NCBI GenBank assembly: GCA_028284225.1
Contig: JANQSD010000013.1
Span: 62,001-126,000 of the forward strand
Source: Arenicellales bacterium
Lineage (GTDB): Bacteria; Pseudomonadota; Gammaproteobacteria; Arenicellales; JAHEKD01
Direction of reading: 5' to 3'
Length of the DNA stretch: 64,000 nt
The position numbers were made by a program, and so were the translations under genes. Positions within the stretch are counted from its first letter, which is position 1. Each line of letters starts with the position of its first letter. Shown in pieces: positions 48,605 to 52,218 of the stretch. The notes under the pieces were generated by a model that was not told the DNA's origin, ran no database searches, and saw only the letters and a program-made list of their open reading frames with translations.

Positions 48605-49549
48605 CTACTTAGATTTACCCTTGGCCTTAGCCTGCTGATCAAACAGCTCCTGTGAGGCCATGGCTTCGTCTTTAATCCAGGCGATAAAATCCAGCACAGC
48701 AGCCTGGTCGATTTTATCCTCCGGTACAATCAAGTTATAACTACTATCACTTTGAACATAAATATCGAGCAATTTAATCAGGCGGCCGGCTTTCAGATCA
48801 TCAGCAACATGGGAACTGCGTGCCAGAGCAATTCCCTGGCCGTCGATGGCAGCTTGTAAGGCCATACTTGAATTAGGGAAATGCAAACCTTTAGGGAGTG
48901 TATAGTCGGTGACACCGGCTGCTGCAAACCAGTCTCTCCAACGCGGCGCGGCGTCGATATTCAAACGCCTTAGAATGGGTAGTTTTAGTAAATCCTCCGG
49001 TTTCTTTACCTGCGTAATTTCAGTTTCAAAGAACTCCGGACTGCAAACAGGAAACGAATAGCCATGTAGCAATGGAATGACATTGTAATCCGGGTGCTGG
49101 CCATCGCTATAAAATACAGCAATATCTGCATCGTTGAATTCCAATTCATTGGCCACCGGCATGGTTATGATAGTGACATCGATATCCGGGTATTGTTGAC
49201 TGAAATCGCCTAGCCGGGGAACCATCCACTTAAGTGCAAAAGACTGGCTTAATGCAACCCGTAAATAGCCTTCATCAGCAGCTGATGCCTCCATATCGGC
49301 CAGGGTTTTGGTTAATGTGGAGAAAAACTCGCTGATGACCGGACTGACTTTTTGGGCCTGCTCAGTAAGCTGAATCCCACGGCCCTGACGCTCAAATAAC
49401 TTAAATCCCCACAGATCCTCGATATGTTTGATCTGGTGGCTGATCGCACTTTGAGTCACATGCAACTCTTCAGCGGCACGGGTATAGTTCAAGTGTCTGG
49501 CCGCCGCTTCAAAAGCTCTAAGTGCTGAAATGGGAGGGTATCTTGTCAT
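48605..49549 (-). CDS. gcvA: LysR-family regulator, GcvA-like
   Basis: I choose ATG 49549 (MTRYPPISALRAFEAAARHL), as GcvA starts, over the upstream ATG 49570 that adds seven residues. 314 residues. HTH: NYTRAAEELHVTQSAISHQI, then the effector domain with LRVALSQSFALKWMVPRLGD, and FPNSSMALQAAIDGQGIALA. GcvA-type proteins regulate glycine cleavage and, in enterobacteria, the divergent small RNA gcvB. Here a small-RNA candidate is divergent at 49683-49812. A palindrome before the start suggests autoregulation. Ends eight bases after the repeat. Confidence 0.85.
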   Translation of the reverse strand: MTRYPPISALRAFEAAARHLNYTRAAEELHVTQSAISHQIKHIEDLWGFKLFERQGRGIQLTEQAQKVSPVISEFFSTLTKTLADMEASAADEGYLRVALSQSFALKWMVPRLGDFSQQYPDIDVTIITMPVANELEFNDADIAVFYSDGQHPDYNVIPLLHGYSFPVCSPEFFETEITQVKKPEDLLKLPILRRLNIDAAPRWRDWFAAAGVTDYTLPKGLHFPNSSMALQAAIDGQGIALARSSHVADDLKAGRLIKLLDIYVQSDSSYNLIVPEDKIDQAAVLDFIAWIKDEAMASQELFDQQAKAKGKSK

Positions 49550-49564
49550 GTTTATAAAAAATTC

Positions 49565-49588
49565 ATACATGAGTAATTGCTCATGTAT
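49565..49588. promoter_or_regulatory. Palindrome upstream of gcvA-like gene
   Basis: ATACATGAG and CTCATGTAT around TAATTG, 16 to 39 bases before ATG 49549. A further ATTGTATGAG half-site follows at 49587. LysR proteins bind such dyads. The upstream alternative start (49570) would fall inside it. Confidence 0.55.
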
Positions 49589-49682
49589 TGTATGAGAATA
49601 TTTCGTTGGAAATCAATAGGCTCGAGCATTAATATCCTTATCAAGTTAATACATAAAACACTTACATTGTTTTATAGAGAAA

Positions 49683-49812
49683 GACTCTCCTCCTCTGTGT
49701 GAATGCTACGGCCGACAGGCTATCTGTCGGCCCTCTAGCAAAAGAGGAGAAGACTGCAAGACTCCTCCTCTGTGTGAACGTTTAGCCGGCCTTCTAGGGC
49801 CGGCTTTTTTTA
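49683..49812 (+). ncRNA. Small-RNA candidate with two CUCCUCCUCUGUGUGAA motifs, divergent from gcvA-like gene
   Basis: An identical 17-base motif CTCCTCCTCTGTGTGAA occurs at 49687-49703 and 49763-49779, each followed by a strong hairpin: GGCCGACAG-GCTAT-CTGTCGGCC (49710-49732) and AGCCGGCC-TTCTAG-GGCCGGCT with T7 (49785-49812). CUCCUCC complements the Shine-Dalgarno GGAGG, so it could pair with many mRNA starts. AGAGGAG (49744-49750) between the copies can pair with the motif. Promoter: TGT-TTTATA extended -10 (49668-49676). No ORF. Position matches gcvB next to gcvA in enterobacteria, though the sequence differs. Confidence 0.65.
49785..49812 (+). terminator. Rho-independent terminator of the small-RNA candidate
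   Basis: AGCCGGCC-TTCTAG-GGCCGGCT hairpin with seven T residues. It ends 38 bases before the convergent APH-type gene's stop at 49851 and could also serve the 3' side of that region. Confidence 0.85.
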
Positions 49813-49850
49813 TCTTAACCCGAATTTAATACCTGCAAAAGTTCTTTTTC

Positions 49851-50816
49851 TTATCCCTGGAGTATTTTGACCTTCTCCAGCCAGTTTTTAAGAGGCTTCA
49901 AATCCGCTTGGCTCAGGTGATTGATTAACAATTTTTCAACACGTGGCAGGTGCTGCAAATAATGATGTTTACCATCCCGAATCGAAAGCCGGGTAAAAAT
50001 GCCCAAAACCTTGCAGTGTCGTTGTGCACCTAATACTCGGTACCAGCGCATAAAGGTTTCTTTTTCAAAATTCATGGCTGCTAAATAATGATTTAACATT
50101 TCAGTCTGTAAGGCCTCGGGAATATCACGCCTGGCATCTTCAAGTAAGGAGACTAAGTCATAAGCTGGCGAACCGATAACTGCATCCTGAAAATCCAGTA
50201 ACCCGCAATCTCCCGAATCGAGTTTAATCAAGTTATCGACATGAAAATCACGTAATACTAACGTATCAGCAAGCGTCGGCAATTGGTCGAAGATGCAGTG
50301 CCACAGATCAACATAATCGGACCGGGCTTCGGTACCGAGCGGTTTCCCCATTTGCTTTGGATAATACCAATCAACTAGCAATAACGCTTCATTAACAAAC
50401 AATTCATTGGAATAGGGCGGTACAGCAACTTTCTTCGCCTCGGAGTGTTGTTGAAGATCAATTAAACAGTTAGCGGCAATTTGATAAAGTTCTTGTTGGT
50501 TGTATCCTTGATTTAAAAGCCTGGTGAACGTGTTATCACCAAAATCTTCCAATAAGATAAATCCATTATCCAAATCGCACTTAATTAGTGTCGGCGCTCT
50601 TAGTTTTAATGTTAATAAATGTTTTGCGACTAAAATAAATGGATTGACGTCTTCGTACTCAGGTGGCGCGTCCATTAGGATAAACGTTGCCGTATCGGTA
50701 TAGATTCGAAAATAGCGGCGAAAAGAAGCATCTTGAGCTAAGGGCTTGATGGTCATGTCCGTCAGTTGACAGGAATCCAAAAAATCATCAATTAACTTTT
50801 GCCGATTGTCATCCAT
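49851..50816 (-). CDS. Aminoglycoside phosphotransferase-family kinase (AmgK-like)
   Basis: 321 residues, APH fold. N-terminal lobe TIKPLAQDASFRRYFRIYTD, hinge with NGFILLEDFGDNTFTRLL, catalytic loop LVLRDFHVDNLIKLD and metal motif GLLDFQDAVIGSPAYDLVS. Closest in style to AmgK, which phosphorylates MurNAc/GlcNAc in cell-wall recycling and usually pairs with murU; no murU is here. Divergent from folE. The kinase family is firm; the sugar substrate is inferred. Confidence 0.87.
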   Translation of the reverse strand: MDDNRQKLIDDFLDSCQLTDMTIKPLAQDASFRRYFRIYTDTATFILMDAPPEYEDVNPFILVAKHLLTLKLRAPTLIKCDLDNGFILLEDFGDNTFTRLLNQGYNQQELYQIAANCLIDLQQHSEAKKVAVPPYSNELFVNEALLLVDWYYPKQMGKPLGTEARSDYVDLWHCIFDQLPTLADTLVLRDFHVDNLIKLDSGDCGLLDFQDAVIGSPAYDLVSLLEDARRDIPEALQTEMLNHYLAAMNFEKETFMRWYRVLGAQRHCKVLGIFTRLSIRDGKHHYLQHLPRVEKLLINHLSQADLKPLKNWLEKVKILQG

Positions 50817-52079: not shown

Positions 52080-52086
52080 TTAACAT

Positions 52087-52170
52087 CTCAACGGGGTGCC
52101 GTGAAAACATGGCTGAGAGGCGTTGCCAACCCGAGAACCTGAACCAGATAATACTGGCGTAGGAATTGAG
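52087..52170 (+). promoter_or_regulatory. TPP riboswitch (THI element)
   Basis: All conserved parts are present: CTCAA P1 (52087-52091) pairing with TTGAG (52166-52170), ACGGGGTGCC, GGCTGAGAGGC, CAACCCGAGAACCTGAACC and ATACTGGCGTAGG. The ligand thiamine diphosphate turns the downstream thiamine-transport operon off. It sits directly before thiBPQ. Confidence 0.96.
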
Positions 52171-52179
52171 CATCTTTGA

Positions 52180-52218
52180 TTCATACGCACGTTATCACAG
52201 ATCATGCAGGCGTATGAA
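52180..52218 (+). promoter_or_regulatory. Start-codon-sequestering hairpin of thiB
   Basis: TTCATACGC (52180-52188) is the exact complement of GCGTATGAA (52210-52218), which contains the thiB start ATG 52214-52216. The 9-base stem with a 21-base loop would hide the start, giving the riboswitch a translational off state. Confidence 0.7.

Follow-up and report, generated by a model that had tools for sequence, protein, structure and literature searches.

What is encoded at positions 49683-49812 of the window, by which we mean the whole 64,000-nt stretch of DNA that was analysed, and how does it relate to the LysR-type regulator gene from which it lies divergent? A sequence-only reading had proposed an anti-Shine-Dalgarno (SD) small RNA (sRNA), possibly of two fused units that arose by duplication, and had taken it for an analogue of the enterobacterial GcvB. 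The following features were located in the region:

49687..49703, + strand: anti-SD motif copy 1 (exact 17-nt match)
49705..49741, + strand: hairpin of unit 1, with a GCTA outer stem and a 9-bp inner stem and without a U-tract (fold; covariation over six units)
49743..49749, + strand: AGAGGAG spacer, complementary to either motif (pairing probabilities)
49762..49778, + strand: anti-SD motif copy 2 (exact 17-nt match)
49784..49812, + strand: hairpin of unit 2 followed by T7, an intrinsic terminator (terminator scan)

Two exact copies of the 17-nt anti-SD motif CTCCTCCTCTGTGTGAA were present on the + strand as claimed, at a distance of 75 nt and not of 76 nt as first given. They were the only matches in the window at up to three mismatches, and shuffled sequences gave 0.06 matches on average and never two. 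A GC-rich hairpin follows each copy, in agreement with the earlier description: that of unit 1 reads GGCCGACAG-GCTAT-CTGTCGGCC and is enclosed by the outer stem GCTA/TAGC, and that of unit 2 reads AGCCGGCCT-TCTA-GGGCCGGCT and runs into the T7 tract. The reported absence of a reading frame also held, as no ORF of at least 80 aa was detected in the tandem region; on the sRNA strand, the 900 nt beyond gcvA contained none of at least 45 aa. Folding led to z = -4.4 for the 130-nt RNA and z = -5.5 for the predicted transcript of 171 nt. The spacer had been thought able to mask the motif, and pairing probabilities bore this out: it can pair with either copy and is paired almost always, mostly with motif 1 if the 5' end is assumed at ~49680 and mostly with motif 2 if it is assumed at ~49642. 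When each unit was folded alone, its motif was largely free. The spacer is also complementary to the seeds of sibling units described below, and the transcript could be imagined as a decoy or self-limiting RNA, that is, a sponge for sibling anti-SD RNAs; with the spacer nearly always paired within the RNA itself, and two seeds set against one spacer, we regard this as highly improbable.

Upstream of the tandem, a putative promoter and operator lie between it and the regulator gene:

48608..49549, - strand: GcvA-subfamily LysR-type regulator (start codon probably the ATG at 49549; the longest ORF starts at 49570)
49565..49588, unstranded: palindrome ATACATGAGTAATTGCTCATGTAT, an inverted repeat and proposed LysR binding site; most gcvA loci of the order have a similar sequence equally far from the promoter
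49603..49609, + strand: conserved promoter element TCGTTGG (TCGTTTG in the order)
49606-49611, + strand: -35-like TTGGAA
49630..49635, + strand: -10-like TAATAT (TATATT in the order), at conserved spacing

Transcription is predicted to start at about 49642, and the first anti-SD motif begins about 45 nt further on. The spacing of 27 nt from the TCGTTTG to the TATATT element is common to 17 orthologous loci and the window (49603 to 49630). Between the palindrome centre and the predicted start lie about 66 nt in the window and 66.5 nt in most of the measurable relatives, and LysR activator sites typically lie at about this distance before the start. Within three mismatches the palindrome is unique in the genome. 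The sister genome keeps both the palindrome and the promoter elements up to the end of its contig, 88 nt upstream of gcvA, and in L235, a relative from the same class, a similar palindrome was found but no anti-SD RNA was seen beside it. It is this position and spacing of the site that point to activation of the window RNA by the LysR protein.

The regulator passed the NCBIfam model for GcvA (316 bits; cut-off 288), as expected from the GcvA-type neighbour first described. A tree of 43 proteins split the order's proteins, including the window regulator, from the GcvB-linked GcvA proteins with a branch support of 99/98; within the order, the window regulator grouped with the DUF1127-linked orthologues, yet branched as sister to the rest. 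As its clade is separate from that of the GcvB-linked proteins, the neighbour is, judged by its sequence, a GcvA-subfamily protein and not an orthologue of enteric GcvA. The Rfam covariance model suggested earlier as a check, RF00022 for GcvB, gave no match in the window at the gathering threshold, nor any in 49540-49860 when E values up to 10 were allowed, whereas Rfam GcvB was found beside six other gcvA genes. The R1 seed region of GcvB is G/U-rich, whereas the seed in the window is C/U-rich. Membership of the GcvB family was therefore rejected (no Rfam match, a regulator of a separate clade, no enteric GcvA orthologue beside the RNA), and what stands of the claimed analogy is a tandem anti-SD RNA that lies divergent from a regulator of the GcvA subfamily, while the relationship to GcvB does not stand. 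A strict analogue, with the same regulator and the same targets (amino-acid and peptide transporters), would share with GcvB its position divergent from a GcvA-subfamily gene and would have one candidate target in a BCCT transporter whose ribosome-binding site is CAGAGGAG; given a different clade, a different seed and no Rfam match in the window, when GcvB does turn up beside true GcvA genes, we consider it very unlikely. An ordinary TPP riboswitch (RF00059, 67 bits) was seen in the window at 52082-52182 (+), just before a gene pair for a substrate-binding protein and a permease.

Comparison at the genus level covered two genomes, that of the window, assembled in 25 contigs, and its sister. 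Outside the window, the window genome has the exact 17-mer on contig C8, downstream of a phasin gene (Pfam Phasin_2). A form with two mismatches lies on contig C10, where the preceding gene is transporter-like but has no match to any Pfam or NCBIfam model. The sister genome has the 17-mer after two phasin genes, so that the totals are three loci in the window genome and two in the sister. Repeats absent or unconserved beside gcvA had been named as evidence against the sequence-only reading; what we found is that both genomes contain units at further loci. Across 84,980 species, a scan yielded 11 additional exact matches, scattered over unrelated bacteria, which look like chance since their number is no higher than the ~30 that we estimate to be expected. 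Two of these were inspected, including one in Herbaspirillum, and are the antisense of likely ribosome-binding sites. A widespread mobile repeat was rejected, as outside the genus only such scattered matches to the exact 17-mer were found.

Alignment of six units gave 12 hairpin pairs, 6 of them changed on both sides, and 92.9% of the cells were paired; both-side changes were observed in 8 cells compared to 2.1 in shuffles, and the counts collapsed once the hairpin partner was slid by one base. The most constant part of the units is the unpaired 17-mer, not the hairpin alone. The window units fit model R1, a genus sRNA family defined by the 17-nt motif and a covarying hairpin, and are themselves part of that model. 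With the covariance model, three more units (E < 1e-3) were detected in the window genome on contigs C1, C12 and C6, the one on C12 following the BCCT transporter gene (PF02028) whose own ribosome-binding site is CAGAGGAG; together with an RF02278-like RNA on C15 they make up four weaker relatives. By type, unit 1 matches the outer-stem units behind the phasin genes of the sister, and unit 2 the terminator unit behind the phasin gene of the window genome. Two units are thus present as proposed, and their difference in type speaks against a plain duplication of one of them. The C10 unit (L010 2840-2989, -, G000) is followed by a phasin-promoter-like sequence, ATTGTGTAACACACAAT..TTAACCAAAG, with no phasin ORF seen, possibly the remnant of a lost phasin gene.

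Phasin 3'UTRs carry such units across the order as well: judged by eye, the anti-SD motif and a hairpin occur in 11 of 20 (families f1, f2 and f6), a CCCTCTGG or CCCTCCGG variant in six and neither in three. The searched literature contained no earlier report of a link between anti-SD RNAs and phasin 3'UTRs or carbon storage. Some DUF1127 promoters (families f2 and f7) have a GTGCANTGCAC-like box resembling the box of phasin promoters, which may be a PhaR site. Another carbon-storage gene with the motif was noted at L058 (G009), where the stop of an acetoacetyl-CoA reductase-like gene is followed by CTCCTCC and then by a terminator.

Beside gcvA, the order shows a recurrent arrangement. A DUF1127 gene (PF06568) is divergent from gcvA in 25 of the 36 gcvA loci examined. 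In the 130 nt past the stop codon, 19 of 27 DUF1127 genes have a TCCTCC or CTCCTC with a terminator behind it, compared to only 2 of 246 control ORFs taken from the fetched loci, mostly of the same order (Fisher 5e-21, treating related loci as independent; families f2, f5 and f8 account for the 19). The DUF1127 loci without the motif are G006, G007, G016, G022, G028, G029, G032 and G079. The usual form in f8 after the DUF1127 stop is ATTCCTCCATTGGTGTTTATT-hairpin-T7, and the best match to the model outside the genus, CTCTCCTCCTCTGTGACTT-hairpin-T8, lies in the DUF1127 3'UTR of G015 (E = 1.4e-5). Many loci (L139, L144, L147, L149, L153, L154, L157 and others) have, between promoter and DUF1127 gene, an ORF of ~28 aa that is mostly hydrophobic, like MNDMFIKVGVAYVGALTVFTLVLTQ; it is absent from the window. 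Unlike its relatives, the window also lacks a DUF1127 gene in the interval from gcvA to the sRNA. The search for the motif next to gcvA in related genomes, as proposed at the outset, thus led to a divergent CU-rich RNA with a terminator across the order, the flank of the sister ending too close to gcvA to include it. The two DUF1127 genes of the window genome (C21:202201 and C8:24816) were rejected as hosts of units, neither having the motif after its stop. Family f11 lacks the DUF1127 gene as well, and the one locus inspected there has a CU-rich stretch before a terminator. Three relatives of the regulator, taken as alphaproteobacterial because only the phylum is shared, likewise have a DUF1127-like ORF, recognised by its motif, on their divergent side.

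As most copies lie downstream of coding genes, and hairpins of the unit 1 type have no U-tract, the units might instead be mainly 3'-end hairpins, mRNA stabilisers or terminators spread with phasin 3'UTRs, with the CU-rich stretch as a landing site for an RNase or another protein. The greater constancy of the 17-mer argues against this, as does the UCCUCC that is still kept with unrelated hairpins in other families; moreover, no coding gene precedes the window copy on its strand, and its promoter is conserved. We therefore hold this explanation to be unlikely.

On these data from DNA, the locus probably encodes a LysR-activated, stand-alone tandem anti-SD sRNA that blocks ribosome-binding sites and was left behind after loss of a DUF1127 gene. 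The divergent GcvA-subfamily regulator would bind the palindrome and activate transcription of an sRNA that acts in trans, is about 130-170 nt long and contains two anti-SD units, whose CUCCUCCUCUG seeds would pair with SD regions (AGAGGAG) of mRNAs and thereby block ribosome binding. At any moment one of the two motifs would be sequestered by the AGAGGAG spacer, and a cut within the spacer would set both units free in active form. Transcription of the sRNA, its activation by the regulator, the blocking of ribosome sites, the processing and the targets are what we infer from these features. A count of ribosome sites in the window genome gave 13 cases of CAGAGGAG-N-ATG compared to 1 in the reversed control; as most of the 13 open only short frames, we do not read this as an enrichment of targets.

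The window locus would then be the ORF-less form of an order-wide module, in which a LysR regulator gene is divergent from a small ORF and a DUF1127 gene whose 3'UTR ends in an anti-SD RNA with a terminator, and sibling units would reside in the 3'UTRs of phasin and transporter genes. We infer that the coding part was lost and the RNA retained; the direction is taken from the alphaproteobacterial outgroups, three loci with DUF1127-like ORFs on long branches. Loss of the coding part is the simplest account, since regulator, operator and promoter are present in the window but the small ORF and the DUF1127 gene are not. Given family f11, such a loss may have occurred twice. Alternatively, a phasin 3'UTR unit was possibly copied into this place. 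A fuller version, which we put forward only tentatively and with less than even confidence, is that a protein gene became an RNA gene: an ancestral LysR-driven mRNA lost its coding part and kept promoter and RNA, and the RNA became a tandem, with siblings in phasin 3'UTRs. If true, making carbon-storage granule proteins would set free RNAs that lower the translation of other genes, and the locus is a candidate case of a 3'UTR-derived sRNA turned into a stand-alone gene.

Among known sRNAs, unit 2 scored best in Rfam with RF02278 (27.3 bits, against a gathering threshold of 50). These RNAs have CU-rich regions complementary to ribosome-binding sites (PMC5688073), the Burkholderia members and Bordetella S17 share a UCCUCC seed and a terminator, overexpression of ncS27 slows growth, and S17 represses its targets (PMC5688073, PMC11722255). 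Sequence and terminator scan revealed the CU-rich, ribosome-site-complementary motif with terminator of such double-hairpin sRNAs in the window, and the several sibling copies also recall the toxic sRNAs of Betaproteobacteria (ncS03/05/27/62, S17). However, the window units are without the first hairpin (a CCUCCA..UGGUGG-type stem), for which the alignment contained 8 non-standard pairs and an 8-nt gap, and a better RF02278-like RNA exists elsewhere in the genome; plain membership was rejected on the score and the missing hairpin. That other RNA lies at C15:6926-6983 (-) (G000, L129) downstream of an AhpC/TSA-family gene, with 48.1 bits against the gathering threshold of 50. Of 229 Gammaproteobacteria genomes, about 65 have RF02278-like RNAs that score below the threshold, some of these RNAs being in tandem, which indicates a family wider than the Rfam entry.

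The AbcR family gave no window match at the gathering threshold, was absent from the matches at E up to 10, and was not found beside the alphaproteobacterial relatives of the regulator that were scanned. AbcR1 and AbcR2 are nevertheless similar as tandem or sibling CU-rich sRNAs beside the gene of an activating LysR protein (PMC8844928, PMC7486931, PMC12595884, PMC5461406), which in the window would be the presumed activator: the two form a tandem next to lsrB/vtlR, one of the pair is activated by LsrB or VtlR, and in Brucella VtlR switches on three DUF1127 genes as well (PMC8844928, PMC7486931, PMC12595884). They differ in their motifs, CUCCCA and GUUCCC, and in the VtlR box, GCAT-N3-TG-N3-T, compared to the palindrome in the window. 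CcsR1-4, CU-rich sRNAs from the 3'UTR of the DUF1127 mRNA ccaF1 in Rhodobacter (PMC8625941), have the same layout as the order-wide DUF1127 form, and the motif name CCUCCUCCC is that of Rfam RF02791. A location in a DUF1127 3'UTR was found in the relatives but not in the window, where the DUF1127 gene is missing, the motif lies 5' of the hairpin and the CcsR1 model reached 11 bits only. The Rfam test thus failed for AbcR, CcsR and RF02278 alike; by its anatomy the window RNA would work like all three, and the link between a LysR regulator, DUF1127 and an anti-SD sRNA, known from Alphaproteobacteria, would be extended to a gammaproteobacterial order.
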